A DNA stretch of 49,897 bases from a virus. Within the stretch, counting starts at the first letter, position 1. Each line of letters begins with the position of its first letter. Shown here in pieces: positions 18,026-49,700 of the stretch. Location: positions 1-49,897 of IMG/VR virus record IMGVR_UViG_3300030328_004331. One strand, written 5' to 3'. The notes beneath the pieces were generated by a model. The model did no database searches. It saw only the letters and a list, made by a program, of their open reading frames with translations, and was not told the DNA's origin. A program made the position numbers and the translations under genes.

Positions 18026-18317
18026 AGCCCAGACAGCCTAACACCTAGGCATCCCCCGAAAAAGTCGTTTCTAGAAATGGGCTTAAAGTCGCGCAAGCAG
18101 GTATACACACACACACGGGCGTACCCCCCCATACCCCGCTCCCACCGGGGGGTAGTGAATCCCAAATATCAGGACACTCCCGTTAATCAACGAAATAGTA
18201 TTTTCTTTAAAAGGAAAATCCCGCGCCGCATTGGGGCAGAAATACACTATTGAAGAAAGGACAGTAACGGTTAGGACGTTTCCCCCGTTACTCAACCCCT
18301 ATACTTCAATCAATAAT
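18026..18317. other. Non-coding stretch before the basic-protein gene
   Basis: About 290 bases with no convincing gene. It holds a CACACACACA run near 18104, a C-rich/G-rich pair (CCCCGCTCCCACCGGGGGG near 18134) that can fold, and an A+T-rich block (TTTTCTTTAAAAGGAAAATC) near 18201. A TTG-started extension of the next gene reaches 18231, but the ATG at 18318 is preferred. A promoter for the GC-richer gene that follows may sit here. Confidence 0.35.
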
Positions 18318-18890
18318 ATGAAAAGCGAAACACGCACAAGCGGAGCGACGGGTTCACGTCGCACAACCACAACCACAACCGCAAAGCCAGCCCGTAAAAA
18401 GGCCAAGGCAAAAGCCAAGCCGAAAGTCGTTAAAAAATACGATACCAAGGCGCGGCTTTACGCTACTGCCGCATCGGCTCGCAAGTCGTCTGCCAAGGCG
18501 AATTACGATGCGCTCGCGGAAAAGGGCAAGCTGAATCTTTGCAAGGCTGACAAGGCGGGCAAAGATTCAAACGCGGCACGGTTGGCCAAGTATCTTTTCG
18601 GCATCATCGCGGGCAACCCCGATGCGACCGAGATAAACGCGGCCAAGCAAATCGCAAAGGATGTTCGGAAGTTCACGGTTGAAATTGGAAAAGAATCCTT
18701 ATCCAAGCACGCCGCGAACATCGAAAAAGGCGAGATCGAACTTTCGTTCTCAGTCTCGATGCCCGGCAACATTATGAAGAAAAACGGTTTGCGTCAGGTT
18801 GTCACCCAGCGGATGGTGAAAAAGGGATTGAATAAGTCTGATTTAATCAAGACGCTCCAACTCACTCCCAGTCAAATGCTTAAAGCATAA
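18318..18890 (+). CDS. Lys/Ala-rich basic protein, histone-like N-terminus
   Basis: 190 aa from the ATG at 18318. The N-terminus is a disordered basic tail (RRTTTTTTAKPARKKAKAKAKPKVVKK). The body is helical (RLAKYLFGIIAGNPDATEINAAKQIAKDVRKF), then a beta segment GEIELSFSVSMPGNIMKK, then a helix and a short C-terminal HTH-like KGLNKSDLIKTLQLTPSQML. Base use is GC-richer than neighbours, hinting at separate origin or high expression. A strong terminator follows. A nucleoid-type DNA-binding role is inferred from composition only. Confidence 0.7.
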   Translation: MKSETRTSGATGSRRTTTTTTAKPARKKAKAKAKPKVVKKYDTKARLYATAASARKSSAKANYDALAEKGKLNLCKADKAGKDSNAARLAKYLFGIIAGNPDATEINAAKQIAKDVRKFTVEIGKESLSKHAANIEKGEIELSFSVSMPGNIMKKNGLRQVVTQRMVKKGLNKSDLIKTLQLTPSQMLKA

Positions 18891-18908
18891 ACCCCTAGCG
18901 GGAACAGA

Positions 18909-18944
18909 CCCCTCACACTCGAAAGAGTGTGGGGGGTTTTTTTT
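18909..18944 (+). terminator. Intrinsic terminator after the basic-protein gene
   Basis: CCCCTCACACTC (18909-18920), loop GAAA, GAGTGTGGGGGG (18925-18936), then eight T (18937-18944). The stem is 12 bp with one wobble and a GNRA tetraloop. Confidence 0.92.
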
Positions 18945-18995
18945 GTTATCTCGTTGTTTTTTTTGTTTTTCAATCAGTAAAAAGTACTTTGCTGG

Positions 18996-19038
18996 TACAA
19001 ACGACAGAAACGGACAGGCCAAGTTCCTGTCGTTTGTA
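18996..19038 (+). promoter_or_regulatory. Long inverted repeat before a small operon
   Basis: TACAAACGACAG (18996-19007) and CTGTCGTTTGTA (19027-19038) form a perfect 12-bp arm pair, 4 nt before the ATG at 19043. An alternative inner stem, GACAGG (19013-19018) with CCTGTC (19026-19031), competes with it. It could be an operator for a dimeric repressor or an mRNA switch hiding the start. Confidence 0.55.
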
Positions 19039-19042
19039 TCAG

Positions 19043-19240
19043 ATGAACGCGAAATGCGAAAGACCTGTGACCGATAAAAAGGAGCAGGCATCAGTCCCTC
19101 CAACTAGCGTCGAGCTAACCGCGTTATATGCGTGGGTAGTGGGGCGAGGAAAGCAATGCCCGAAAGGGGTGTTGCAGGTTGCGGAGCGAATGCTCCAAAA
19201 TCAAATCCAGATTGCCCAATTTGACGAAAGGTATAAATGA
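19043..19240 (+). CDS. Hypothetical protein after the inverted repeat
   Basis: 65 aa from the ATG at 19043; the open frame upstream of it runs through terminator and hairpin sequence. Contains a helical C-terminus (PKGVLQVAERMLQNQIQIAQFDERYK) after SVELTALYAWVVGRGKQC. It overlaps the next gene by ATGA. No family recognised. Confidence 0.6.
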   Translation: MNAKCERPVTDKKEQASVPPTSVELTALYAWVVGRGKQCPKGVLQVAERMLQNQIQIAQFDERYK

Positions 19241-19476
19241 GGACGGGAACCCGATACAGAAAGAAACGGGCCTCTCGAAAGAAAAGAGAGGCGAAGGTTT
19301 ATCGGCAGTCGAAGGACAAGCAACTAGTTGCAGTCCCTGTCGAGAGTTTGTTTGACCCTGAGAGAAACCTACGTGGTGGATGGGGTCGTCAGACCGAAGT
19401 GAAGAACCATTACAAAGCCGCCAAAGCGGCAGCGAGAAAGGTAAACAAAAGTGAATTGGTAACATATCACAAATAA
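19237..19476 (+). CDS. Small very basic protein
   Basis: 79 aa; the first 25 residues are mostly Arg/Lys (MRTGTRYRKKRASRKKREAK). The rest includes LVAVPVESLFDPERNLRGGWG and a helix YKAAKAAARKVNKSE. It starts by ATGA overlap with the preceding gene and ends 13 nt before a terminator, so the two form a short unit just ahead of the ~1 kb RNA. RNA or DNA binding is inferred from charge; a link with the adjacent structured RNA is worth testing. Confidence 0.6.
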   Translation: MRTGTRYRKKRASRKKREAKVYRQSKDKQLVAVPVESLFDPERNLRGGWGRQTEVKNHYKAAKAAARKVNKSELVTYHK

Positions 19477-19489
19477 GTAATAACCGCGA

Positions 19490-19522
19490 AGCGGGTAGGT
19501 GTAAAAGCCTGCCCGCTTTCTT
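19490..19522 (+). terminator. Terminator-like hairpin before the long RNA region
   Basis: AGCGGGTAGG (19490-19499), 8-nt loop, CCTGCCCGCT (19508-19517) with one G-U pair, then TTCTTC. The tail is T-rich but interrupted, so strength is uncertain. Confidence 0.62.
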
Positions 19523-19528
19523 CATTGC

Positions 19529-20569
19529 TTGCCATCTGTTTTGTTTTATTCAAGGCAGATGGCAGTCAATTTAGATTGCCTGCTCATAGTGTGAGAGTGT
19601 GCGTAAGCCGACAAATATCGTGCTGATAGTCGAGTCTTTTTAGGCTAGGACGCTATCGGAGAGTCGAGGCACAATCACGTTGTGTGATGTAATATCAGTT
19701 CTGGTGATAGGCTGTCGCGGAAGCGGCGGTGAAACAAACGAACGTCCCTTGGAGCGTAAGCGAATATGCGGAAGAAAAAACCGTTAGGGACAGCCACTTG
19801 TGCGAGCAAGTGGGGCATACGGGTGAGCCTGTGTGGACACGTCTTGAGACTGGAACAGAGAAAAGCAAGCGCAGCCTTTTAGGTGTTGCCTGCACGGTTG
19901 AGATTACCGTGCAATAGGCATGAGTAAGTGCGCGTTCACAATGCAACGTGATTCGTTTAGTCGGGAATGCCAGCGTAGGGCCAGCAAGCCAAACACTCGC
20001 AAGCTATGAGCAGTGGTAGTGGCGAGTCATGTCAACTACTGTTAGCGGACAACACTTTAGTCTCTCCGTGTGAACCATGTATTTGGGTGTAGCACGGTCG
20101 CTAGAGGTTGTCCGTGTAGAATTGTCTTTATAATTCTGGCAGTTTTGATGTGTCGGCAAAGGCATGCCTACTCTTACGAGGATAGCCCATGACACAAGGT
20201 CACGGGCGCGACCACACCGAACGACCCCAGCCATGCATAGCACATGGACGGGTGATAACTGTGAGACCGTGCACAATCCATACGATTCGTATGGGCATAG
20301 CTATTATGCGGAACAGTTAGTTGGCTAGCGTACTCTGCGCTAGTTGGCTCAATAGCAAGGAGTGGCTCTCAGCGAGAGTCAATAGATGTAGTCGTGGACA
20401 TCTAAAACAAACACGACACAGAGACATGTCAGTTGTTAGGGAGTATTCTCCTCTGCCTTATGGCAGATGCCCTCTCAACTGCGTGTCTTCTTTTGTGTCT
20501 ATCACGATAGGTACAAAAGAGGACACGACAAACAAAACCCCCAGCCGATTTGGTTGGGGGTCTTTTTTT
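19529..20569 (+). ncRNA. Candidate ~1 kb ornate structured RNA
   Basis: About 1,040 bases with no credible gene, bounded by terminator-like hairpins. I found many short-range stems by hand: 19531-38/19556-63, 19744-48/19787-91, 19794-800/19807-13, 19816-23/19828-35, 19891-98/19906-13, 20046-53/20107-14 (enclosing a further stem 20066-70/20093-97), 20118-23/20132-37, 20150-54/20191-95, 20278-84/20288-94, 20295-99/20305-09, 20325-30/20338-43, 20364-70/20374-80, and a long three-part hairpin 20482-87/20522-27. The density and nesting recall the giant phage-associated RNAs GOLLD and ROOL. Orientation is set by the strong terminator at 20538-20569. Family membership is not shown. Confidence 0.72.
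20538..20569 (+). terminator. Strong intrinsic terminator ending the RNA region
   Basis: CCCCCAGCC (20538-20546), loop GATTT, GGTTGGGGG (20552-20560), then TC and seven T (20563-20569). Nine base pairs with one wobble. It separates the RNA from the small-gene operon starting at 20594. Confidence 0.92.
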
Positions 20570-20593
20570 GTGCCCTCGTTTAGGAAATAAATC

Positions 20594-20788
20594 ATGAAGC
20601 TATTAAAGATAGATAGTGGAATGGGAATCAGAGAGCAGATTAAAGGTGCTGCTAACTCTGAGGATTTGGCCACGTTGGTCAAAGAGATTGCCACCGCTCT
20701 GGAGAGTGGCAAATTGGTAGACGTACCGAGCAAGACTCAGGCGCGTTGGGAAAGGACTGCGGATCGCAGGAGAAAGGAGCTCTCGTAA
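20594..20788 (+). CDS. Hypothetical small protein
   Basis: 64 aa, helical (LATLVKEIATALESGKLVDV), ending in Arg/Lys (WERTADRRRKELS). Ribosome site AGGAAA lies 9 nt before the ATG. It is the first gene after the RNA terminator and leads a run of six small tightly packed genes. Not recognised. Confidence 0.62.
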   Translation: MKLLKIDSGMGIREQIKGAANSEDLATLVKEIATALESGKLVDVPSKTQARWERTADRRRKELS

Positions 20789-23244: not shown

Positions 23245-23685
23245 ATGATACATATTACTGTTCGTTATGGTTTGGAGCGCAGTGCTTCAATTGAGGTGAG
23301 TGAAGGTACGTCCATCGCTCAGGTGTTGGAGCAGGTTCGCCCTGCTCTTGGCTTTGGCTGCAACGTCAAGGCGTTAATCGGTGGTGCTGCTCAGCCAGAC
23401 AGCAACACCGTTCGTGATGGAGATGTAATCTCTGTCGAGACCGCTGCCAATTCTAAGGCATCGGAGGTATCCGTAACAGTCCGCTATGGACTGGAGCGGC
23501 AGGTCACCACATCTGTGCCAGAGGGCTCCTCTATTGAGGAAGTACTCGGCAGGGTGCGGGCAGCGTTGGGCTTTGGCGATAACGTCAAAGCGTTAATCGA
23601 CGGGGCGGCTCAGCCGATGACCAATGGGGTCGCTAACGGCGACGTCATTACCGTCGAGACAGCGGCCAATTCAAAGGCCGTTTAA
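23245..23685 (+). CDS. Tandem ubiquitin-like (beta-grasp) protein
   Basis: 146 aa made of two copies of one domain: residues ~2-72 and ~75-145, offset 73. By hand 47 of 67 aligned residues are identical. Each copy has a VRYGLER strand, an EGxSI turn, a helix (VLxxVRxALGFG), NVKALI, and GDVIxVE, the beta-grasp order of ubiquitin, ThiS and MoaD. Copies end ETAANSKA; there is no C-terminal Gly-Gly. Tandem Ubl proteins occur as BilA and ISG15. E2-, E1- and JAMM-like genes follow. Codons are GC-richer than those of neighbours. AGGAAA lies 6 nt before the ATG; a terminator follows. Confidence 0.85.
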   Translation: MIHITVRYGLERSASIEVSEGTSIAQVLEQVRPALGFGCNVKALIGGAAQPDSNTVRDGDVISVETAANSKASEVSVTVRYGLERQVTTSVPEGSSIEEVLGRVRAALGFGDNVKALIDGAAQPMTNGVANGDVITVETAANSKAV

Positions 23686-23710
23686 GTGTAGTCTTTAGGA
23701 GCAGAACAGC

Positions 23711-23738
23711 AACCCCCATGGGAAACCATGGGGGTTTT
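23711..23738 (+). terminator. Intrinsic terminator between Ubl and E2-like genes
   Basis: AACCCCCATGG (23711-23721), loop GAAA, CCATGGGGGTT (23726-23736), then TTTT. Perfect 11-bp stem. It would make Ubl mRNA more abundant than the enzyme genes downstream, which fits a substrate-modifier protein. Confidence 0.88.
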
Positions 23739-23763
23739 CTGTTCCTATAACTGATAAAATAAA

Positions 23764-24633
23764 ATGAATAATCAAAGAGATAATAGAACATATAAAGATA
23801 TAGTTGGTGGTGCACACCTGATAATAACAGATGAAGGTGTTTACGAGCCAAGGCACGTCCTCCAATACAAGGGAACAATGGAAGAACATCTGCAGAAGTT
23901 TGTAGATGCTGCTCCAACTAGGCTGATGGACTTAGCAACTTACAACGGTAAGCCTATTCACGTTAGCTTCGTTCCGTCAGGTAGAGAAGACATGAGAGGA
24001 ACATATTATGTTAGCGTTGAGCTAAAGACACTAAGGTTCAACACTACATATGAAGTATGTACTGAAACAAATGGGGGAACAGTAACTGATAAGTGGATTG
24101 CTCCTACATTCAGAGAAATGAATGGTGATGGTTACCAAACCTACTCACTAGACTGGCAAGTACCTAGCTCGCTACAGCTATACATATCTTTCGAGATGGG
24201 CCAATCCCATGCAAGAGGATACCAAGCTGGAGAAGGCGCAGTGAGGACAGGAATGACTGCGTTCACCCCGCAGAACTCTTATCTGCACTGTAAGATTAGA
24301 GAAAATTATATTGCTGAACATCGAATGCCCGAAGCTGCTAAAGGTTGGTTCCGACTACCAACTGGTAACGTGTATGAGGATGGCAAGATATGTTTCGGAG
24401 CTTCATATGCAACAGAAGTAGGTCTTGTTGAATCAACCAAGGCAAATCTTGAACTGTTCTACAGCACCCCTTGGAACAGTGACTTGATAAGAGACTTGAG
24501 AACCAAGTCTAAAATGATGTTTCGATTTCATGCTGAGGACAACCAGCAGCTGCCTATCAAATGTGAACATGACAAACTGCATGAGTTGATGGAGTCTTTT
24601 AATAGTGTAACCATGGAAAGGATACCGGTATGA
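23764..24633 (+). CDS. E2-like protein (PRTRC protein B / Prok-E2 type)
   Basis: 289 aa. The key segment is LPTGNVYEDGKICFG at residues 198-212, matching the E2 active-site layout 'P..N-(V/I)-Y-x-x-G-x-(I/V)-C'. C210 is the candidate thioester Cys. A short helical/aromatic part (LELFYSTPWNSDLIRDL) follows, as in PRTRC B proteins. The N-terminal ~190 residues are beta-rich and hold no second motif I can name. It should accept the Ubl from E1 and pass it to a target. Gene overlaps the next by 4 nt. Assignment rests on motif plus E1/Ubl/JAMM neighbours. Confidence 0.75.
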   Translation: MNNQRDNRTYKDIVGGAHLIITDEGVYEPRHVLQYKGTMEEHLQKFVDAAPTRLMDLATYNGKPIHVSFVPSGREDMRGTYYVSVELKTLRFNTTYEVCTETNGGTVTDKWIAPTFREMNGDGYQTYSLDWQVPSSLQLYISFEMGQSHARGYQAGEGAVRTGMTAFTPQNSYLHCKIRENYIAEHRMPEAAKGWFRLPTGNVYEDGKICFGASYATEVGLVESTKANLELFYSTPWNSDLIRDLRTKSKMMFRFHAEDNQQLPIKCEHDKLHELMESFNSVTMERIPV

Positions 24634-25097
24634 ATATAAGTAAAATAATAATAAGGGACTTGATAAGCAGGCCCGTTGTTCGACAGGAAAATATAAGAGC
24701 TCAATTTGAGAATGTTCTTGCCGATCAGGGGAAGTATTACATCAACCTACAGAATTACAGTAGACAAGAAGATGTAGATAGGATGAACCGAGAAGAAGTG
24801 CTGTTGTTTTTACGCGCTCTTGTTTGCGCGGGGTACTTCTACAAACTGACGAATGAGCAGAGAGAGATTCTTACTGACCCGTACAAGGTGCTTCAAGAAA
24901 GAGTGCTGGGTGTAAAATCTGGGTCAATACAGCGTAAGTTTTTGCGGAACGTAATGTGTACAGATTCATCGCACAGAGTATTCCATGACCCGGATATTGA
25001 TGAGCAAATTGATAATGTTCTTGCTGATCTTGAACAAGATCCAGATATAGAATCACTTCAAGCTGCATTTGATAATATAGGAGATGATGATGAGTAG
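24630..25097 (+). CDS. Unknown protein in the Ubl cassette
   Basis: 155 aa, helical. Segments: MNISKIIIRDLISRPVVRQEN, VLLFLRALVCAGYFYKLTNEQREIL, a basic RKFLRNV stretch, and an acidic C-terminus (DEQIDNVLADLEQDPD ... GDDDE). Overlaps E2-like and E1-like genes (4 and 8 nt), so it is made with them. It may be a structural partner of the E1/E2 pair or a target-recognition protein. No motif or family recognised. Confidence 0.65.
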   Translation: MNISKIIIRDLISRPVVRQENIRAQFENVLADQGKYYINLQNYSRQEDVDRMNREEVLLFLRALVCAGYFYKLTNEQREILTDPYKVLQERVLGVKSGSIQRKFLRNVMCTDSSHRVFHDPDIDEQIDNVLADLEQDPDIESLQAAFDNIGDDDE

Positions 25098-25833
25098 GAA
25101 CTATCATGTTATAGGAGCAGGCGGAGTGGGGAGTTGGTTACTCCCCGCTCTGGTTAAACTAGCTAATCCACAAGACAACATCTATCTATGGGATGGAGAT
25201 ACACTTGAACCTAAGAATATGGACAGGCAACTGTTCAGCCCGTCTGACATAGGTTCCAACAAAGCTGAGGCTTTGATGAGGAAGTATGCTCAGGAAGCAG
25301 CATGCAATCTCTACGCAAAGAACGAGTACTTCACATGTAGTAAGGTAGACCTAAGTGATTCAGGGAATTATTGGTTAAGACACGACAAAGATGAAGTAGT
25401 TCTGTTTGGTTGCGCGGACAACCATCCAAGTCGAGCCGAGATACTACATGTGTGCGACAGGGATGGTGTGTGCTCTATCATTGGCGGCAATGGATATACA
25501 GATGCCGATGGATATTATTATGATGCTTCATATGAGGGCACGCCATGTGACCCGAGGGTATACTATCCCGAAATCCTGACAGATAGAACTGGATCCCCAG
25601 TACATGCAGATGGTTGCACTGGTGAGGCTCAGAAAGAAACACCTCAACTTGTGCTGGCTAATATGTGGGCAGCGGCGCATATGCTACACCTTCTTTGGTA
25701 TCATGTTCTTGGAGGTATAGCTGAGTCTTTGCCTGAAGATATGAAGGAGCATATGCCTATGCTTTCTAGGAACTCAGCTTATATGTTTGAGACAGTTAAG
25801 AAAGGTATGCTTGAGGACGGGGCTTTAAAGTAA
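25090..25833 (+). CDS. E1-like adenylating enzyme (ThiF/MoeB family)
   Basis: 247 aa from the third of three consecutive ATGs (25084, 25087, 25090); AGGAG ends 6 nt before 25090, favouring that start. Rossmann loop GAGGVGSW (residues 9-16), acidic strand end LWDGDTLEPKNMDRQLF (ATP/Mg and the RQ pair), GSNKA, and FGCADNHPSR are E1 signatures. C176 in ADGCTGEAQKETPQ is a candidate catalytic Cys. It should activate the Ubl C-terminus by adenylation. It is a compact ThiF-type E1 without the extra domains of eukaryotic UBA1. Confidence 0.86.
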   Translation: MSRNYHVIGAGGVGSWLLPALVKLANPQDNIYLWDGDTLEPKNMDRQLFSPSDIGSNKAEALMRKYAQEAACNLYAKNEYFTCSKVDLSDSGNYWLRHDKDEVVLFGCADNHPSRAEILHVCDRDGVCSIIGGNGYTDADGYYYDASYEGTPCDPRVYYPEILTDRTGSPVHADGCTGEAQKETPQLVLANMWAAAHMLHLLWYHVLGGIAESLPEDMKEHMPMLSRNSAYMFETVKKGMLEDGALK

Positions 25834-25859
25834 AGTTTTTTGTGAGAAAGGAATGATCA

Positions 25860-26966
25860 ATGCCTACAGGAGTATATGAAAGAAAGAATAACTATAAAGA
25901 AAAGTCCTGCCCGACATGTGCTAAAAAGTTTATATCTTATAACAATAACAAAACCCATTGCAGCAAGGAGTGCAGGATTAACCACGGAGAAAGAGAGTGC
26001 ATAAAATGTAAAGTCACACAACCAATTGCACACTTTACCGTTTTAAATAAAAACTCCAAAAACAAAACCGGGAGGCGGAAGACATGCAGGAAATGTTTGG
26101 GACAGGTGAAGTGGGACGGGGAAGGAAGAAACCCTAGCAAATACTTAGGTAAGAACGGAAAAAGCACATGCTGTCATTGCGGCAAAACAAAACCGATAAC
26201 GGATTTCGTGTATGATCTTAAGAAACAACAAGGCATCAAGTATTACAGAAAGTGTAAGGATTGCCATAACGCATATGCAAGGGAGCGGAGGAAAGACCCT
26301 AAAAGGAAGAAGCGTGAATCCAAGCAAGCAAAACGTCGGCTGGAGATTAACAAAAGAAACCCGGAGTATTACGATAAAAAAAGAAAGTTAAAAAATGAAT
26401 GGAGAGAAAAAAACAGAGAGCAAAGTAGGGAATACGAAAAAAAATACTACAGTTTAAACAAAGAAAAAATTAATAAAAGGAGAAAAGAACAAAGAAATAA
26501 TATGTGTAAAGACCCAGAAAAATTAGAAAAACTCAGAGAGCTTAAAAGGAATTGGTCTCGATCAGAAAAAGGTAAAGAGAGTATTAAAAAATCCCGTAGT
26601 AAAAACTATAATAAAACTAAGAAGTACCTATATAATAAATACCACACAAACCCACAATACAAATTGAGTTGTCTGCTTAGAAGTAGGCTTAGTCATGCTG
26701 TTAGGGGCAGGGTTAAGCATTCTAGTACAATAGACTTGTTGGGAATGACTATTGATGACTTCAAGTGTTATTTCAAATCCAAGTTCAAAAGGGGTATGTC
26801 ATGGAAGAAATTCTTAGCGGGCGATATACACATCGACCATATAAAGCCTTGTGCTTCCTTTGATCTAACAAAAGAGTCAGAACAAAAGAAATGTTTCCAC
26901 TACACAAATCTTCAGCCTTTGTGGGCAATGGATAATTTTAAAAAGGGAGCTAAGATAGCAGCATAA
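25860..26966 (+). CDS. Free-standing HNH homing endonuclease
   Basis: 368 aa. N-terminal zinc knuckles (SCPTCAKKF ... HCSKEC; ECIKCKVTQP ... CRKCLG; CCHCGKTKP ... KCKDC), a long Lys/Arg/Glu-rich linker, and a C-terminal HNH core: DIHIDHIKPCASFDL then HYTNLQPLWAMDNFKKG. Freestanding HNH genes are common selfish elements in phages. It lies between the E1-like gene and the next cassette gene with no reading-frame overlap, and is more A-rich than its neighbours. It is probably an insertion that did not break a gene. Confidence 0.85.
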   Translation: MPTGVYERKNNYKEKSCPTCAKKFISYNNNKTHCSKECRINHGERECIKCKVTQPIAHFTVLNKNSKNKTGRRKTCRKCLGQVKWDGEGRNPSKYLGKNGKSTCCHCGKTKPITDFVYDLKKQQGIKYYRKCKDCHNAYARERRKDPKRKKRESKQAKRRLEINKRNPEYYDKKRKLKNEWREKNREQSREYEKKYYSLNKEKINKRRKEQRNNMCKDPEKLEKLRELKRNWSRSEKGKESIKKSRSKNYNKTKKYLYNKYHTNPQYKLSCLLRSRLSHAVRGRVKHSSTIDLLGMTIDDFKCYFKSKFKRGMSWKKFLAGDIHIDHIKPCASFDLTKESEQKKCFHYTNLQPLWAMDNFKKGAKIAA

Positions 26967-37403: not shown

Positions 37404-37754
37404 ATGAACAGAGGACTCCCAACTGAAGTAGACATCCTTAATCTTACTTATAAGATTAACTGGATGAATCCACCTGAAGAATCAGGTGCTGAGCAATTGG
37501 GATTGTGTGACTTCCAATCTCAGATTATATCAGTAACAAAGTCTCTGCCCCGACAGTCGAGGGCAGAGACGCTACTTCACGAAATCATACACGCAATCAA
37601 TCACGGGATGGGTGCACCCAACAAGATAGACGAGGAGAAGTTTACCACAAAGATGTCTATCGGGATTGCCACCACAATCAAGCAGAGCCCAGATGTTTGG
37701 AAGTGGATAATGAAAGAGATTTCCTCTAAACCCCGTAAGCCCTCCTCGTCCTAG
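37404..37754 (+). CDS. Small HExxH zinc metallopeptidase-like protein
   Basis: 116 aa. Signature LLHEIIHAINHGMG (residues ~54-67): HEIIH supplies two His zinc ligands and the Glu base. The downstream KIDEEKFTTKMS acid (EE) may be the third ligand, as in gluzincins. The sequence resembles small phage metallopeptidases related to ImmA/IrrE. A role such as cutting a repressor or host protein is inferred. Its end overlaps the giant leftward gene by 29 nt, antisense. Confidence 0.7.
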   Translation: MNRGLPTEVDILNLTYKINWMNPPEESGAEQLGLCDFQSQIISVTKSLPRQSRAETLLHEIIHAINHGMGAPNKIDEEKFTTKMSIGIATTIKQSPDVWKWIMKEISSKPRKPSSS

Positions 37755-40700
37755 AGAGAGCCCTTCTGTAGCCAGAAGAATCCCCTTCAGATCTTCTTCT
37801 TCCTCTAGCCCTTTCAAATACTGACTTAGCCCTAGCGGTGCTTCGGCTTCTCTTCGGTCTTCCTTCTGCGATAACAACAGAACGTGCGTCTAATTTAATC
37901 CTGTTCGGCCTACCGCCTAACATCCTATACCCTTTGTTAAAGTTTTCTTCTGTTCTCCTGAAAGCATCCAGCCACTCAGGGCCATACTCTGCTATCTTCT
38001 GCTCCACTTTTGCTTTCATGCTGAACGTAATAGTTCCCTTTGTTTCGGTCGACCAAGGATCCCTCCCCCAGTACAGTCTCATAACATAATCGACTGGATT
38101 TTCTTTCTTCATTTCCTCAGCCTTGCCAACAGCTAAAGAAAACTCTTTGAGAAGCTTTTCACGCTTATTTGCTATAGCATAAGAAACCATCGCGTCTATA
38201 TGAGGGCTAACAGGTGTTGCTGAACCGAACCCACCAGAACCAAATCCTTTTTGTTTGCTGTAGTCTGTGTCTATAAACTTTCGTATTAATCTTTGGTTGT
38301 TTGCATAGTCAACCCTCCCAGAAGAAACGGGAGATATTAAATTCATGGCAGACCTTATTGCAGGGTTTCCAAACGTAGACTTAACATAGTAATCAAACTT
38401 ATAGAAAGGGTCTTTTGTTTGAGCAACACCAACACCGTAACCTATAATCTTTTTAACCAATGATTGCCAAAAGAACTCAATGCCACTAGCTGCCCTAGGG
38501 GCAGTACCAGAAACAAACCCTCCAAAAGCATTGATTGGAATGTTAAACATCGGGAAGGCTGCAAAAGCATATTGAATCCAGCCACCAACTTGACGACTTA
38601 ACTCTTCCTCTTCGTATGGTTGCTTGTTAGCCGCAACTTCCCCATAAAACATTTTAGCAAACTCTTCAATGATCTCGTCTGTAGCAATACTATAACCAGC
38701 ACCAACCAAAGTTAACGAACCCATTACAGCTAGTAACTGCTGGAACCTTAACCCGTGCACACTCCACCACCTAGTGTCTCCTTTGATGGATCTAGAATAC
38801 CAAGAAACGGAATTGTGATAAGCGGCAACACTCCAGCCCATAAGCCTCCACATGTTTGAAGCAGCCACACTTGATCTTACTTCAAGTGGTCTGCTAGCTA
38901 TTGTGTTTGCGTTCTCAGAAAAGAGTGCTATTCCAATTTTTGCTGTCTTGTCTGCATCTAAAAACTGAGCGTTCTTATCCGAGTCTAACTGCTGAAGGAA
39001 CATCAAAGCCTCCCTGTGAAAGTCTAATCCAGACTGGGCAAACAAGTCCTCAAGGAACTTCATGCTAGACTCGTTTTGTTTTGCCAAGCCAAAAAACTTT
39101 TCCCCCCAAAGGTGGCTTGGTGAAATAACATCTCCCTTGTCTGGGTCAAAAGACTTATCAGGAGAGTTGTACCACTTCCACAATCTATCTTTATATAGAT
39201 CGTGCATCTTCTTGAGGCGAGCATCCAGCTCTCTAGCGATGGTATTAGCACCCCTGAAAGATATATTATTGCCCGTCATATCAAAGATTCTGGGGCCAAT
39301 GTTCCCTCCAGTTTCTATGCCGATCCAAGCTAAAGCATTGTAAGCTTCAACAAGTCTTTTGTACGCCCTGCCCTTTGCGGTTTCTCTTCTTGAGGCAAGC
39401 TCTTCCTCTCTCTCTATTCTTCCTCTTGTCTCTAGGTTCCTAAAATAATTATCAAACCTACCAGCCGCATCTATTCGTATGCCGTATCCCCGTGAAGCAA
39501 TGTGTGCTAGGTTCTCGTTAATTTTAAACTGCCCCAAAACAAGCTCCTTAGCCCAAGCCTCATCCATGCTTTTCTTAAGGAAGGCTTTTATAGCAGGCTT
39601 GATCCTTGCGCCCTTGCCATCCCCTTTGAAACCAAGTTTTGCTGCAGACACCAACCCCGCACCAAGGCCGTAAGAAGCAGCTCCACCGGTTTCTAATATA
39701 GCAGCAACATGGTTCCATATCCCTGATACGTGAAGCCTAGGGGAGAAACCAAATATTGCCTGTATTCTTTTTCTTGTTCTTTGGGGCGTGCCTAACAGGT
39801 TTCTGAAGCCTGTTTTAATAGAAGCCATAGCTGCTGCTGTAAGGTCATTGTATGCGGTTTGAGCAACACCTTGGGCTAAGGCTTGCTCGTATTTTTGGTC
39901 TCTTAATTGTATGGATTCAATCTCGTTAGACAAAGCTTCAAGCTTGCTTATGTCCATGTGGAGAGTGTCGTACTTAATAAAGTTATCACCGTTACCTGCA
40001 GCCCTTGCTTGATCTGCAGTAAACCCTTCAATTTTTTTATCCAACTTACTCTTCGCTCCCCTTAGGTATCCCTTAACTCCCTCAAGAGAACTTATAAATC
40101 TTTCTATATATTGAGCTGAAGAGTCAGCAACTATCTTTGCAAGCTGCGGTGTGTTGTGGATTCCGTAATCATAAAAATACCAATTAGCTATAGGCTCCTG
40201 CCTTGCGGTGTTAAAGCTGTTCCTTTCCTTAAGTACTATTATCTTTAGATCTTGGCTTTGAGCCTTGCTCATGTTCGGGCTAACCTTTAGATGAACCCTC
40301 CTAATCTGAGAAACCATTTCCCTTAGTATCTCATAAGTAGCTTCTTCCTGAGTAAGGGACATATCTATTTCCACATCCTCTTCGGACTTACTTAAATCAA
40401 CAGACCTAGACGAAAAGTATGCCCCAAGTTCTTCAAGGTTTGTTATGCTCCCCCTGCCTACAAGATCTCTAGCGTCACTGTATATGCTTGGGTTCTCGAA
40501 ATAAGGGTTTGTTCCGTTTGTTATCTTCCCTTCCCTGTGGCCAAGGAAGGCCTCAACATATCTCCACTCAGACCCTATTAAATCATATAGGCTTTCCTTA
40601 CCTAAAACCTTAGCTTCTTTGTATATTGAAAGTTTCATGGCCCTAGCCACGTCATCTGCAATATCTCCATTAGCGTTCTGTTCGTTTATAAGCCTAATAG

Positions 40701-43700
40701 GTTCAATTATCTGTTCGTAGTATTGGTTGACCCTCTCTGCGAAAGCAACCGAAGACATAACAAAAGTTTTAGGAAGAACAGTTTCGCTAGTTTTAATAGG
40801 CTTTCTAGTGAAAGAAACCTTTCTTGGTTTGTCCTTGCCTTTCGACGGCCTCTTGCCCCTAACCTCTTCCTCTACTTCTCTTGAGGCTGCAATATCTCCC
40901 CTTAGTACCTTAAGGTTTAGGTCGTAAAGCTCTGTTATTCCTTTTGATTGGTATTCAACAGCGGCCTTGTCTTCTTTTGTTATCTTATGTTCAACTCCAC
41001 CAACCCAAAGGCTGTCTCCAACTTCTAGCTCTCGCCCCTTTTCATTCATTAAGGCGAAGTATTCTTGTCCCACATCTAGCCACCATTGCTCCACGCCCAA
41101 CACATCCGCGGCATGCCCATGGGATTCAGCAGCATCATAAAGTCTTTTTGCGTTGCCCTGTTCAAATCCTTTTCTCCAATCCTCAGATCTTTCGCTAATA
41201 TCAACATGGTTTTGTAGCTCTTGAGTAGACACTCTGGCGGGGTAACCACCTAGATCTAACAAGAAGTTTGACATAGGCTTAAACTTATAACCCAGCTTTC
41301 CTACGTTTAAGATCTTGGATCTTTCCGAAACCCCGCCCGCCCTTGTTGTGTTTGAGTTGTAAAGAGCCTTTATCATGTCTCTTTGTTCAACCCAGAAAAA
41401 ATTAAACACATCGTCTAGGTTCTCTTCACCCTTTGAGATCCTTTCGTTGGACTCAATTATGTAAGCGTTTAACTTTTTAAGATGCTCGTCTAGAAAACCA
41501 AGCTGCCTCTCAAGGGAAGCCTTGTCTCCTACGTCCATAGAAATGTTAACCACCTCCCCGTCTGGAGACGGGAGTATTAAAGAATCTTGCGTGTACTCTA
41601 TCTTCTCGTTTGGCTTAAGCTGAACCGCCTCAACAGCAGTCTTTCTTGCGTCCTTAAATTCTCTAGAGTTAACAACATCGTCAAGAACAGAAAGTGAAAG
41701 CTCCGTCTCCATAAACGTTTTAACAAACCTTTTAAGCTCGCTCTTCTTAGAAATGTAAATCCTTGCGAGGTCAGCCTCTTTTTTAGATGTGCTTCTTATT
41801 GTGTTTAACAGTGTAGTTAATGCAGCTCTCCCTCCTTTTGACTGCATCTCTTCAAACCATTTTTCGTATGAAGAATAAACAGGAGACTCTAGTTCTATAT
41901 CCCTTGTTAACTTTTCTATTAAATCTCTGTCTCCATCTTTAACAGCTTTCTTTAGTTTCTTTTCCAGCTTAGATCGTTTCTCGCTTGAAATATATTGGTC
42001 AAGGTTACTCGGGCTGGAGCTCTTATCTATCATATCCCTTGAGTACGAATCAATATCATCAGCAATCTTAAGTTGTTTCTTGTCTATGTCATGCTTAAGC
42101 CTTATCTGCCAAGCTGCAAGTTTATGTAATGGGGTTATATTAACATCAACCTTTTCCCTCTTCTTACCCAGCTTTTCATATTCTTTTAAAATATCATCAG
42201 GGCTCTCAAGCTTTACTTTTTTAGGCGGAGGTCTAAAGCCCTCTACAGAAGGATCAAGAGCTGCTTCTAACTCAGCCTCCCCAGTCTTTATTTTTTTGTA
42301 CTCATTAAGAATACCTCGCCAGCCCCTGCCACTAAACAAAACCCTCCTACCCCTTTCAGTGGAATAAAGTTCTGCGTACATGTCTTCAACAATATTAGAA
42401 AGATTTTTACCAAGAGTAACATCGTTGATTTGGTCGTTAAGCTGCATTATTGAAAACCCAAAACCTTCAAGTAACCGAGCAGCTTCGCTTTGCCTTCCCT
42501 TTGCGTCCGCCTGCCTTAGCAACTCCCAAGCTCTTTCTTTGGCGTCCTTTGATACTGTTGCCAGATACTCCTTATCATAGTGAAGCTGTTTTGTTTCTTC
42601 CCATAATTCAGATAACTTGTCCTTGCCTTCATTTAAGGTCTCCATCTTGGCTTGAAGCCTTTGGTATCCAGATATAAAAAACTCAAAGTTTAAAGCAACA
42701 GTCCTTGAAACAACTTGCCACATAGATTCAGGCATCTTTTTATCAGTAGACTGGGCTGCGCTCATATCAAGGTAAGTCCTTGGGCTTAGCGTAGTGTGCC
42801 CTGTAATACTGGAAAAATCTTTAAGGTACTGGGCAATGCCCTTGTTCCTTTTTAGCTGGGTCATGACCTGTATCCTAGCGGATGGATTCACATTTCCTTC
42901 CTCGTCCAGAATCATTCCAGCATACTTCTCGCTGTTGGCTAAGTTAGCTAAAGAGTTTTCAACTAAGTCAGACAAAAGCGTAGAAGCCGCCCCGGCCTCA
43001 GCAGCAATAAGCTCAGCTGCCTCTGGGTTGGCCCCCTCCCTATACCCAGCAACCAATGATCTTTCTACCTCTTGCTGATACTCGTACTTCCCAAATGTTT
43101 TTGCAGGGAGACTTCTTCTCCTGCTGGAAAACTCCCCGTTATTAAACTTCCTAACAATAGACTCCTTTAGGTCTCCAGTTATAAACTCCTTAATGTACTT
43201 AAATATCTCCTTAACCTTGTTAACGATAGCTTCAAACCTAGATTTAGAAATATAAGGAAGGCTAGATAGTTCCTTTATCTTTCCTTCTTCTGTCATCATG
43301 TAAACAAAATACTCCGCATCATTAATCAAGGGGTAAACAGAGTTAACAGCTTCGTTAAAATTTTCAGGGAAAGAGACACCCTCAGGAAGGACTTTCCTCC
43401 TAACACCCCTGCTCCACTCCACAGTATCCATACTGCCACCCGCCTCAATTAGAATGTCAGCAACAATCTTTTGGTATTTAGTTCCAGCCCCTCTTGAAAG
43501 TTTTTCAATGGCTGCAGTCCGCATGCTTTTAATGTGACCAAGCTCCCTATCCCCTAGGAAACCGAAAAGACTGTGAGTTAATTCGTGTGCTATGTCAGAG
43601 TCTGCGCCCTCCTTGTTTCTTGTCTCTAGATTAATAGCTGAAGTTAAGCGTCCATTGATTTCGTGGAACTTACCAGAAAGCCTAACCCCTCCAGCCACAA

Positions 43701-46700
43701 TGTCCTCAGCTATCTCAAAGTTTAGATCACTTAGATATTTACCGGGAACATTATCCAGTATCTCCATACCCCTCCTAACCATTTCCTCTGGCAAGACACT
43801 TGAGTATTCCTCAAGTAAACTTCTTATTTCCTGAGGCCCCTTAGCTTTAGCTAAAACATTATATTTGTCATTAGCAGCGGTTTCTTCAGTGGGCTTGCCG
43901 AATAGTTTTCCAGTTGCGCCAACCTTACCGCCCTTAAACATTATACGCTTTTCACTTAGGTAGTCTTGAGGGACTGCTTTTCTAGCAGTTATAGTCTCGA
44001 AAATTTCAGGAATATATTCAAATGTCCCCATACTTTCCAGACCCTCGGCGTAAACTTCTACTTCTTTATCGGTAACAGTTCTAAGTCTCTTCCCGAATGG
44101 AGACTTCTTTACGTCACCCGCGGCCCTGACAGACTTGGTTGCCCTGTCACCATAAGCGCCCTTAGTGTCCTCTATTAAAGTATCAATATCGTGTGCGACC
44201 TGAACAGCGGTACTCTTTGCAGACCTTTGCGATTTAATCCCAAGCAAGTCCCTGAAAAGTTTTGCGTTCATTCCAGATTGCTTTATTAAAAGATTGCTAG
44301 TGTCTTCAAAAAGCTCGGAAAGCATCCTCTTTCTTAAGAGTCTATTAGGTGAGTTAGCTTCTTTCCTCCATCTCCAGTTATACTCAGCAGACTGATAGGA
44401 TCTCATTGCATTATCATAAGATGTTCTCTCCTTATCGTATGCCGCTTGAGCCTGTTCTATCTGCTTTTCAGTAAGCCCCCTTGTCTTTGGTTTTTTAGGA
44501 GCCTTGATGGAAGGCCTCTTGGGCTTCTGCAATTCAATATCTCTTAATATCTCTGAAGCGTTTCTGTTATACGCATCAAGAACTAGCTGCTTATTACTCT
44601 CATTCCCGTATCTACTGTCACCCTCCCATTCTTTAGAAAACAAAAGCGAAGAAACATCATCTGGGTTTTCTAATATAGCCTTGTACCTAGCAAACAAATC
44701 AACAGCTGAGTACTCGTTTGAGCTCTCGTTCCTCTTCACCTTGAAGTGAAGCTTGCTTAAATCTCTTTCACCGTTCTCTCTCCACCTGTCAATAATAGTA
44801 CCTTCATTGTACTCTATTGCGATCTTCATTAGGGTGGTGAAAAGACGCCTGTTATCAAACTTGCTTTTAAAGTTCTTGCCCTTAGTGAAACTTCTTAGCT
44901 CATGCTTTAGGTAGTTTGTGCGCATTTGCTGCCTACTAACAGCCCCAGATATAATATCTCTGAAGTAAGTAAGAAAAGCTTCCCAAGGGGTTGAGTGGTT
45001 TTTTTGTTGCTTAGCTTGAAATTTTTGGAAAGCTTCTGCTGGTAAATCCTTCTCGTGCCTACCAACGGTTTGTTTGTAAAGATCGGTCTCTGCCATCTCC
45101 TCAAACTCCCAAGCAAACGCACGGTTCATGAAATTCTTTAGAACTTTGCTGCCTCTTCCAAAGGCCATGGAAACAATAGCAGAGATTTCTTGATAAACAT
45201 CGTGCTCCTTACTCCAATTTTTATACTCAAGCTGGTCTTCAATGGATATGTTTTCCCTGTAATTAGATTCAAGATCCTCCTTAAAAGTATTTAACTCTTG
45301 AGCAGCAACCCCCTCTGCCTCTTTCCTTGTAGCTAGAAAAGATTTAGTTGGCACATACTCATCTTCTTTTATAGTTACCACCTTCCCCTCTTCGTCTATT
45401 TTTATCAGACCGTATGACTCCCTTATCCTTTTCTTTTCTTCTTTTACAGCCTCCTTAATTTCTTTTTCTACGGCCTCAACCTTCTGGACAACTTCGGATT
45501 TGTTATCTAGGGGGTTAATTGAAAGCCTAAGAATAAGATCGCTAAATTCTTTAGCCCCATTGAGGGGCTTACCAAACGAGTCAAAGAAATCTTTTGTTCC
45601 ATCTTTGTTTATGTTTGCTTTCATTAAATTGTTCTTAACAAGAACATCTAATAACCTTGCAACTGATTTCTCTGAAGTCTTCTTAGCAATAGTGGGTAAG
45701 CTATCAAGTGCGTCACCATCAAAAACCTCTATGTTAACCTCGTCGTGTGCCACAACCGCCTCAGCATTTGCAGTATGAACATCATCCATAGACTCAGAGG
45801 TGAACGAAGCTCTATACCTTCTTGCTGCATTTGCGTTCCTACCTTTAAGCTTCCTGACCCTAGCGTTGTCCTGCCTCTTAACCTCCTCCATCTCCCTGTC
45901 AGTAACAACATCAGAAGAGTAGTCTGTAATCTCGGTTGACTCTATTGTTACGACATCTGGATTGTCTTCAGGTATAGTCTCATAGACTAAAGTATTAGGG
46001 TCGCCATCAGACATTATCTTATCAGCTAAATCAGAGTCCTGTAATATTGCCCCCAATTCTTTTTTGAAAGGCAGGGCATAGCTTGTAACTGGAACAGAAT
46101 AAAGCCCCCTTGTGATAGCAAAAGCCCTAGCTTCTAAAGAGGAATAGTCAGTGTCACCTATCTCCATGTTTAAGAATCTCTGAAGCTCTGCCATTTCTGA
46201 TTCTTTGTCAGGGGTAAGCTGCAAAGGAATAACCCCTACAGTTTTTATCTTACCCAATGTTCTTTTCTCTGACTGACTTTGCTCTTCGTCGTATTTATCC
46301 CTCCACTCTTTTAAAGAAAGATAATCTCCATTAGGATGCTTGCCTAAAGTTCCTGAGTAAACCTTTTGTATGCTTGCCTCTGCGTCCTTAATATATATGT
46401 CATACTTTTCCCTTAGCTGTTTTTCTTTTGCCGTATCTAAGTTATTGTCTCCCAGCTCCTTTATGGTTCTGTTAACACTTTCCCTCTTGGTTTTAAGTAT
46501 AGAAACATAATACAAGAACCTATCAAACTTCCTTGAAAGATTATACTTAACCCCTTGTCTTTCTATAGAAGGGGGAAGATCGTTCCCGCTTAAGTCAAGA
46601 CCGTTGACAACTATGTTTTCAAAAGGTTTTGTTGCTAAGTCGTCATTCCTGTACCGCCTATAAAGGTCAAGCCCCTTAACCATGTCTGATTCAGCCGTTA

Positions 46701-49700
46701 TGATTTCATCAGCCATGTCCCTAGCCCTGTTCCAATCTTGTATAGCCCTGTCAGAAGCAGCCCTAATAGCGTCTCTGATTGCGTCGGCAAACTCCATTGG
46801 GGTTAGCCTAGCAATCTGTTCCTTCTTGTTGGCTTTGGATATATTCCTAGGCTTAAAGCTTTTAGATATATCCATCTCCTCATGGTTTCTTGCGAAATTA
46901 ACATAACCAGATAGCGCTGCATGCCCTTCGGAAGTATCCCTCTTAAACTCTGCAGCTAGACCATCGCTCCCAATTGAATCAAATATGTAAGAAAGCTTTT
47001 CCCTTAACACATGACGATCAAGAACGGATTGGGGCATTTCGGACTGGAACTTCCACTCTGATTTTTTACCCACCTTATTCCAGTTCTCTGACCTAAACTC
47101 TCCGTTACTGTCCCATATTAAATCATAAGGGACATAAACGAACGCAGTAGTTTTTTTGTCTTTAACATAGGGGTCTGACTTAAGATCCTTTGCTAACTTG
47201 TCTTTTAATTTGTATACCGTGGAAGGAGTGTTGGCTAAGTTTATAGACTTAATTGTTATAGACCTTTTTCCTTTTGTCTCGCTAAACCCAATGTAGGAAT
47301 CAGTGGCTTGTCCGTTTTCGTTGTATAGGTTGCTAGCGGTTGGGTTTGACTCAGGGCCCTCAATAGGCATGAAGTATTCAACCGAATCCTTTGTTCCATC
47401 AACCCCGCTTACAGTAAGGTTTTTTGCTTTGTCTGAATTAACAACTATTGCCGACCTACCTAGCTTGTGGAAGGTAGCCCCTCTTGGAACCTGAATAATG
47501 TTTTCTCCGATCCAGTCTATAAAGCTTTCCTTCACTTTAAAAGGAACCTTAACCAACGTTGCTTCCCTGTTCCCCAAAAAGTCTGGATCCCCTAAAACAG
47601 TTTCTGTTTTATAATCTATAATTTCCTCGAGAATACTGTCTACCCACTGTGAAACATTTCCGTTTTTATCTATAATCTGTTTCTTCTGGAAAGACTTCCT
47701 CTTCCTTGCTTCTTCGAAATATTTAATAACAGCGTCACGAACTAGGGTGATTTGAGACGGGTCTATCTGTACTTTTTCTGACTTCAAAGAAACCATAATG
47801 TCTGTAGGCCCTTGAAGCAGGTCTAAGTAATCTGCAAGTATCTCTGTGTTCGTTGGGTTTTTCTTACTACCCGCCTGAAGTTTCTTTATTTTTAAACTAA
47901 GATAAGCATCACGTATGCTATATTTTATTTGTTGTCCGACCTCAATTATGAGATCAGATAAAGCGTTGAAGTTTATTGGGGCAACAAAAAGAAAAGAGTT
48001 TGTGCTAGATAAATCAGGTTTAAAAACTTGAGCGGCAGAATCTTTAATCCTTTCAAGGCTTTCGTTTTGTTTGGATTGATTGGCATCTTTCTGTTGCTTT
48101 AAATTCGCAATTTCTTCTTTTATTGAAACCTCTGTCTTGGCTCTAGGTTTATCTGTCTTGGCTCTAGGTTTAGCAGGGGCGGTTCTGCCTGCGACTGGCT
48201 TAAGGCTTGAAGGTCTTCCAGCTTTCTTTTTGGGTGTAGTTGTTGTTTCAGCAGTTTCCTGCTTGGCTGTCTCTTTAGGTGTCTCTTTAGGTGTCTGTTG
48301 AAAATAAGACCGTCTTTTTGTTCGCCTTTTTTTACTGGATTTCTGTTCTTGAAATCTTTGTGTTTGTTGAGCCGCGCTACCTCTATATGCCTCAGGAATG
48401 TTTCTTGCTAGAGAAGCTGGAATTTTAGGAGCCCCTGCTAGAAGTTGAAGTTCCTTTGGGTCAGTAACCCCGGGAGTCTCTATAGAGGAAGACTCCCTCA
48501 TCTGCCTTAGAATATCTTCGTTTTCTTTCTGAGCATTCCTTCGTATTTCTGCGTTTGCCCTTACATCCTGAAGGGTTTGGTTTACGTCTTCGACTGTAGA
48601 CCTAGGAGACCTTACCGCTCCTACCTCCTTATCTGTGGCATCCCTGATTTGATCTATGGTAAAGTTAGGCCCTTCTTCGTTGAGAACAACCTCTCCGTTC
48701 CATATAGCTTGAATCACATTTCCGCTTCTAGGGTCAACATTAGTTATCTCAGCCAAGACAACACCCTCTTCTGTTTCGTGTAAGTATCTTGCTCCCACTG
48801 CGGCAGTGTAATCTAAGTCTGAGTTTTCAGTTTTGTATGGAGCAAGAGACTGAGGCATTGGATTATCATATGTTGCCGTGTTAACGGCCCTCTGCCTTTC
48901 TACATTTAAGTCGCTTTGTATTTCAGCATCTACTTGTTGCTGTTCTATATTAACACCAGCGTTAGATTCTGCTGCCTGCCTAAGTTCTGCTGCAGTCTTC
49001 TCCAACTCTGTTAGTTCTTTTGTTTCCTCTGGCTTAGCCTCTACGCGAGACCGCATAGCGACAACTATAGGGGAAAGCTCTTCTTTTATTTTGCTCTTAA
49101 CCGAGTCTTCCTGCTGAAGGTTGTCTGCTTTTTCTAGAAACTCCCCAACAATATCTACTTCTTGCTGAGAAAAATATCTTTCTGAATCGTTAACAGCTTT
49201 CCTAGTGCTATCAATTAAACCTTTATAAACAGCTAGCTGAGACTGCGACTGAATAGACTGTCTTTCTTCTGGGGTAAGGGCAGAAGCTACCTCGTTTAAG
49301 AACTCAGCGTCTTCATCTGGGGTTGGATTCCTGTCTCCTAGATAATTACCATAAGCCCCTAACCCTCCCATTGCCCCGCCACCAACAAAACCAGCTGCGG
49401 TTGCGTCTACTAATCTGAAAAAGTTTTCTGGAGTTGCTAGATCATATGTTTTGTCAGCCAAAAGAGCAGCAGCTTTGTTTGTCCCTAGAGATACAGCTTC
49501 TTGGGCTAACTCTGTTACAGCCTCTTGACCAGCAGTACCAAGGAGGCTATATAAAATATCAGTATAAAACCTCTTACCCGTGCCACCTTTTGAGTTTAAA
49601 ATTCTACTTATTGGTAAGTAGTTTAAAGCACCTTGAACAGCTCCACTAGCAAGGGCTAGCGGCCTGTTTTCCACACCTGTTATTTCTCTAGTTTCACTGA

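Follow-up and report, generated by a model that had tools for sequence, protein, structure and literature searches.

A candidate class of large ornate phage RNA with a constant 3' hairpin and an exchangeable body

To our knowledge, only a handful of bacterial and phage RNAs of great size and elaborate structure have been found, and we know of no phage example whose function has been explained. Among them, ROOL is often encoded close to tRNA islands, and GOLLD lies near tRNAs or contains them. Both GOLLD and ROOL assemble into RNA-only cages (PMC12286853), and GOLLD consists of a conserved 3' part and a more variable 5' part (PMC12286853). GOLLD builds up when cells lyse and is bound to ribosomes in pull-downs, and phages can be produced without it (PMC12286853, PMC7567579). 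Phage ICP1, which has no tRNAs, carries an ncRNA of ~800 nt in a 1-kb space devoid of ORFs, and large phage ncRNAs can reach the top of transcript abundance (PMC7567579). The lncRNAs of phage K, which adjoin tRNA genes, were likened to GOLLD and ROOL by position and abundance and not by sequence (PMC9241854).

The window, meaning the whole stretch of 49,897 nt that was analysed, is a 49.9-kb phage contig with genes for the terminase large subunit (11001, + strand), DnaB helicase (16116, + strand), a Sak4-like protein, an exonuclease and an integrase. Positions 19529-20569 of this phage, which infects bacteria, almost certainly encode a structured noncoding RNA, and it very probably lies outside the known Rfam classes (Table 1). 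The existence of the RNA class is well supported, and its function is what we infer. The reading preferred here, with a probability of about 0.6, is that this ornate phage RNA represents a new class, its 3' hairpin constant and its body exchangeable, and that it would act in infection as a particle or RNP.

Table 1. Features of the RNA locus and its surroundings (positions in the window)
Feature	Position	Strand	Remarks
Exchange cassette, 2.4 kb	18147-20589		blastn of window against L034 (G007)
Variable upstream protein	18231-18890	+	Followed by terminator 18906-18946
Small protein MNAKCERPVTDKKEQ...	19043-19240	+	pI 9.1; G006 homolog located after the RNA
Small basic protein, 79 aa	19237-19476	+	pI 10.9; candidate partner; directly upstream of the RNA
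5'-edge palindrome	19519-19575		Core TGCCATCTG/CAGATGGCA; inverted-repeat scan
Probable large structured noncoding RNA, type A	19529-20569	+	~1,040 nt with 5' palindrome and terminator; fold, homologs, compensatory changes
Second 5' hairpin	19561-19580	+	GGCAGTC/GATTGCC; read directly from the sequence
Central domain	19995-20140	+	Helix 20046-20053/20107-20114, CGGACAAC/GTTGTCCG
3'-terminal hairpin, 22 bp	20482-20527	+	GTGTCTTCTTTTGTGTCTA...TAGGTACAAAAGAGGACAC; inverted-repeat scan and blastn
Intrinsic terminator of the RNA	20537-20568	+	Stem 20537-20561, 11 pairs, then CTTTTTTT; T-run to 20568; consensus scan
First gene past the cassette	20594-20788	+	Directly past the cassette in G007 too

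The region corresponds to the interval from the stop of ORF 19237-19476 to the ATG at 20594. The largest ORFs within it are short or have weak starts, namely 62 aa at 19729 (+ strand), 89 aa from a TTG at 20321 (+ strand), which reads across the terminator, and 90 aa from a TTG at 20004 (- strand). No conserved reading frame was found when the region was compared with its relatives by tblastn; the matches are short and fall in several frames on both strands, indicating that nucleotides and not a protein are conserved. An earlier note, made from the sequence of the window, had described ~1,040 bases without a plausible gene, and both its coordinates and the lack of any gene-like or conserved ORF are borne out. 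Recovery of a frameshifted gene, named there as grounds for refutation, did not occur in the tblastn comparison with relatives.

Positions 19570-20569 fold with a minimum free energy of -385.5 kcal/mol, compared with -322.4±8.9 in dinucleotide shuffles (z -7.1), and z is -4.3 once both ends with their strong hairpins are cut off. Perfect hairpins with a stem of at least 6 pairs number 8 against 2.0±1.35 in 200 shuffles, approximately a fourfold excess, and those of at least 7 pairs number 5 against 0.5. Therefore the earlier count of more than a dozen stems is reached if near-perfect or longer-range stems are included, but not with perfect hairpins. Other single 1-kb windows of the record also hold up to 8-10 perfect hairpins, so that the hairpin count alone is no proof of an RNA, and the proof is comparative. 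The G+C content is 49% in the region and 44% in the whole record. The strong terminator that had been proposed at the 3' end was also recovered by the consensus scan, with its stem and T-run, and a scan of 18800-20700 for sigma-70-like promoters gave none.

In IMG/VR, 15 contigs encode a portal protein 76-88% identical to that of the record. Four of these (G006, G007, G008 and G013) span the place of the RNA, and all 4 carry a large, ORF-poor, structured stretch there; the contig G003 stops within the RNA and supplies the 5' end only. It can be seen that the sequences form two types with homology within each: type A comprises the window, G006 and G003, and type B comprises G007, G008 and G013. 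The sample thus amounts to 2 full and 1 partial member of type A and 3 of type B, two of which are 95% identical.

The type B members can be aligned by sequence alone. RNAalifold predicted 236 pairs in this alignment, and in 44 of them both sides have changed with the pair kept. Within the RNA proper, 43 compensated pairs were counted against 19.5±2.9 in column-shuffled alignments, none of 100 reaching 43, and the energy z is -12.4 (100 column shuffles). When the 5' palindrome and 3' hairpin are left out, the alignment still has 34 compensated pairs against 15.8±3.5, and a z of -8.0. Single-sequence folds gave z values of -6.3 for G007 and -7.3 for G008. As examples, a domain-closing helix reads TTCGAAC/GTTCGAA in G008 and TTACAC/GTGTAA in G007, and the G008 hairpin CTAAGT/GCTTAG is replaced by AGTTGAG/CTCAACT.

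Type A is more diverged. Its central domain has an energy z of -6.8 and 10 compensated pairs against 4.5±2.0 in shuffled alignments. The main helix of this domain, which surrounds GTGAACC...GGGTGTAGC, reads CAGACAGC/GCTGTCTG in G006. The 5' domain without the palindrome, in an alignment by sequence only, gave an energy z of -0.07 and 16 compensated pairs against a mean of 10.6; the structure-aware alignment stands at z 4.3 above shuffles, a control that tests sequence and structure jointly. A z of -8.6 for a home-made alignment of the whole of type A is not relied on, because its anchors were picked by eye and both terminators were included. These two domains of type A are less strongly supported by the alignments than the type B fold. 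The search for compensatory changes among homologs, by which the earlier note proposed to judge the RNA, has thus turned out positive for type B and for the type A central domain. The marks of a large ornate phage ncRNA, namely several hundred nucleotides, no ORF, an elaborate fold and covariation, are all found at this locus.

Several pairs of the 5' palindrome show compensation in G006 and G003 (TGTCATTAG/CTAATGACA), and the palindrome would be either a DNA operator or promoter element or else the first hairpin of the RNA. It and the second 5' hairpin, whose counterpart in G006 is GACAGTC/GACTGTT, are mutually exclusive, GGCA being common to both.

Only one element is clearly common to both types, the 3'-terminal hairpin (blastn of window against G008, E 3e-4), which occupies the same position and contains GTGTCYTYTTTT(T)GTGTCTA ... 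TAGRYACAMAARRGG. At its tip, an extra domain of ~145-155 nt is present in G006 of type A and G007 of type B. Whole-length structure-aware alignment of A with B, made with a home-made Sankoff-type aligner, was no better than its controls, whether these were reversed, rotated or shuffled. The B core, used as a covariance model, retrieved every B member and no A member; homology is thus seen within the types and not between them. Because of these two results, the claim put forward from the alignments is of one 3' module with two apparent body types, rather than of one proven family. Types A and B may even be two RNA classes linked by a single common hairpin.

DNA similarity to 50,697 phage records was confined to two chance scraps (26-35 bases, E about 1 or worse), and the portal and small proteins had no relatives in the same records. 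No match to the portal was found in bacterial genomes, and the variable upstream protein used as bait drew no relatives. A pattern of the 3' hairpin matched only the four known relatives in IMG/VR; its 25 matches in GTDB genomes were rejected, since all are without the second arm and are therefore chance. Among parts of four distant contigs, which are fragments with terminases of 34-42% identity, no ORF-free gap of at least 350 nt was found. Also, the B-core model, which misses type A too, found no match in the distant terminase relatives, whose contigs are fragmentary.

Window and G007 are 97.9% identical in blastn up to 18146 and match again from 20590, with no match between. The terminase gene of the window is 94.9% identical in nucleotides to that of G007, its sister, and 76% to that of G006. 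The window is of type A and G007 of type B, while the more distant G006 is again of type A, so descent of the phages does not predict which type of RNA they carry. Judging from these alignments, a cassette with the RNA and the adjacent variable protein gene is replaced between phages; its contents are the variable protein, the small basic proteins and the RNA. The RNA is present in every spanning phage (the window and 4 relatives) while its type changes. That the nearest relative has a completely different version in this place points to a function of the RNA that makes exchange worthwhile.

A tract rich in C, and so in G on the minus strand, lies at the left edge of the cassette, at 18115-18150. 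The relatives read have similar tracts in this position, such as CCCCCATGCCCCCGCTCCCACCCCC in G013, and the tract may serve in recombination or regulation. Elsewhere in the genome, G007 has no match to 25805-26748, around the ORF 25860-26966 for an HNH-type, endonuclease VII-like protein, and the flanks are 93-96% identical; this is a probable homing-type insertion or exchange.

In type A the variable upstream protein is basic (pI 10.3), whereas type B has an acidic one (pI about 6); that of the window matches nothing in Pfam or PHROG. Both small basic ORFs noticed ahead of the RNA are indeed present. In each of the 3 type A phages the RNA is preceded by the protein of the 19237 type, and in each of the 3 type B phages it is followed by another small basic protein; the two families showed no similarity when compared, and neither gave a recognised RNA-binding family. 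Structure predictions for both are of low confidence, the model for 19237-19476 being helical. As for the suggestion that such proteins are partners of the RNA, the constant adjacency within each type weakly favours it, but the failure to match an RNA-binding family speaks against it. The 5' part of ORF 19043 (19043-19091) is 92% identical to 11027-10979 of L033, within the G006 ORF past the RNA, indicating that small genes are shuffled around the RNA. The genes after the RNA differ among the window, G006 and the type B phages. Ahead of ORF 19043, a long inverted repeat with 20-nt arms (90%) lies at 18992-19042, and an analogue of different sequence, GTCATTGCATCTG...CAGATGCGATGAC, precedes the small basic ORF of G006.

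Two further observations concern the remainder of the record. A phage-borne ubiquitin-like cluster extends over 23245-25833, which we take to resemble PRTRC-type systems. The product of 23245 is read as a putative tandem beta-grasp Ubl protein (weak Pfam hits only), and DNA repeats within its gene are consistent with tandem duplication; 23764 is Prok-E2_D-like (E 9e-4, short of the Pfam cut-off) and 25084 matches ThiF/E1 (E 1.5e-13). Additionally, a single ORF of 4,000 aa on the minus strand (37726-49728) takes up a quarter of the record without a significant Pfam or PHROG match. A virion RNA polymerase, with hairpin promoters, was considered for this protein and set aside, no family match being found.

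The earlier note had suggested a member of GOLLD or ROOL or a new class, and proposed searches with the GOLLD, ROOL, OLE and HEARO models. Rfam cmscan of the region gave nothing at gathering and, at E<=10, only weak generic hairpin or terminator matches that score far under the cut-off, with no large class among them. One of these, Phe_leader at 20466-20570, was rejected as a generic hairpin-plus-terminator match (32.8 bits against a cut-off of 55). In direct searches of five phage records at E<=10, no match was obtained with ROOL (RF03087), whose model, run on 118 genomes from the order that includes Vagococcus, recovered full-length ROOLs in 5, with GOLLD (RF02032) or OLE (RF01071), models run without a positive control, or with HEARO (RF02033). 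Neither the window nor any of eight related loci contained a tRNA gene. With the models empty and no tRNAs nearby, a new class is favoured and membership in GOLLD or ROOL is not; the structured RNA itself stands.

A divergent member of one of these four classes would have the similar size (0.7-1.1 kb), the phage location, the ornate fold and, as in GOLLD (PMC12286853), the conserved 3' and variable 5' layout seen here, but it is made very improbable by the empty cmscan and direct searches at E<=10, by a ROOL model that works on known genomes and by the lack of tRNAs nearby. A decayed or frameshifted protein gene could account for about 1 kb free of genes in a dense phage genome; however, the relatives share no conserved frame and compensation occurs at base pairs and not at codons, so this explanation is hardly credible. 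A DNA element, such as an origin of replication or a site for recombination or packaging, with inverted repeats acting in DNA, would agree with the palindromes at 18992-19042 and 19519-19575, the lack of a detected promoter and the nearby exchange boundaries. It is nevertheless improbable given the compensated pairs of type B over about 900 columns with many G-U exchanges, the long-range nested helices and mostly far from palindromic stems, and the one-strand intrinsic terminator closing the unit. The + strand also folds better relative to shuffles (z -7.1 over 1,000 nt, against -5.5 over a 961-nt part of the - strand), a weak argument against a DNA element because the stretches differ. Likewise, a long leader or cis-regulatory region would be placed, as here, upstream of a same-strand run of small genes, but a strong terminator separates it from 20594, the downstream genes differ among the window, G006 and the type B phages, and about 1 kb is far above the size of known leaders, which makes it distinctly improbable.

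A more serious alternative, though an unlikely one, accepts the RNA and denies it a function in conflict: it might be a late abundant RNA occupying ribosomes or host RNA-binding proteins, for example, and the A/B swap a neutral by-product of recombination around the variable protein gene. GOLLD, which accumulates on lysis and binds ribosomes and yet is dispensable, offers a precedent (PMC12286853, PMC7567579), and other small genes nearby also vary between the window and G007. However, all 5 spanning phages keep the RNA, its body and the protein change together, and neutral swapping alone leaves the constant 3' hairpin unexplained.

Returning to the preferred reading of a new phage RNA class, an abundant RNA particle at the time of infection is proposed because of the precedents of GOLLD, ROOL and ICP1 (PMC12286853, PMC7567579). 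The fold, the homologs, the compensation, the terminator and the swapping of types are seen in the sequences; for transcription, particle formation, partner and target, we infer the following scheme. The RNA would be transcribed at a high level during infection and independently terminated, and its body would fold into a particle, alone or with the adjacent small basic protein. The conserved 3' hairpin could serve as a handle for a common phage or host factor, and the body could act on a host or competitor target. If this target varies between hosts or rivals, the observed swapping of RNA type between phages, along with the adjacent variable protein gene, would be favoured. A function as a swappable effector is only tentatively suggested. 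Doubtful in its full form is an allelic large-RNA system, in which an effector of 0.7-1.1 kb, with a constant 3' handle (optionally bearing the ~150-nt apical domain) and a type-specific body, might be exchanged as a cassette with the variable protein, hosts, defence systems or rival phages being the source of selection.

The searches indicate a real and very probably undescribed large phage RNA, and its pattern of exchange is unusual. The two exchangeable types in near-identical phages represent a natural experiment on the function of large RNAs, and the RNA is a new cryo-EM candidate for RNA-only assemblies. Like ROOL, it is a large ornate RNA of a phage or prophage with no conserved ORF, but it differs in having no match to the model, no tRNA island, two sequence types and a 3' hairpin that bears an apical domain in some members. 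GOLLD is also a phage RNA of 800+ nt with a conserved 3' part and a more variable 5' part; it differs from the present RNA, which has no match to its model and no tRNA inside or nearby, and the constant part here is one 22-bp hairpin whereas that of GOLLD is a domain of 416 positions. OLE is likewise large and ornate and acts as an RNP with small proteins, but it comes from extremophile and anaerobic bacteria and not from phages, and it has no match here. By description and not by sequence, two more systems are comparable. The phage K lncRNAs (PMC9241854) are long noncoding phage RNAs too, although theirs adjoin tRNA genes. The ICP1 ncRNA (PMC7567579) also fills a stretch of ~1 kb devoid of ORFs, and its phage too lacks tRNAs; it adjoins a lysis cluster whereas the RNA here adjoins replication genes, and its expression has been shown whereas that of the present RNA is predicted. 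As far as sequence can tell, the RNA of this phage resembles GOLLD, ROOL, OLE and HEARO in its size, setting and ornateness.
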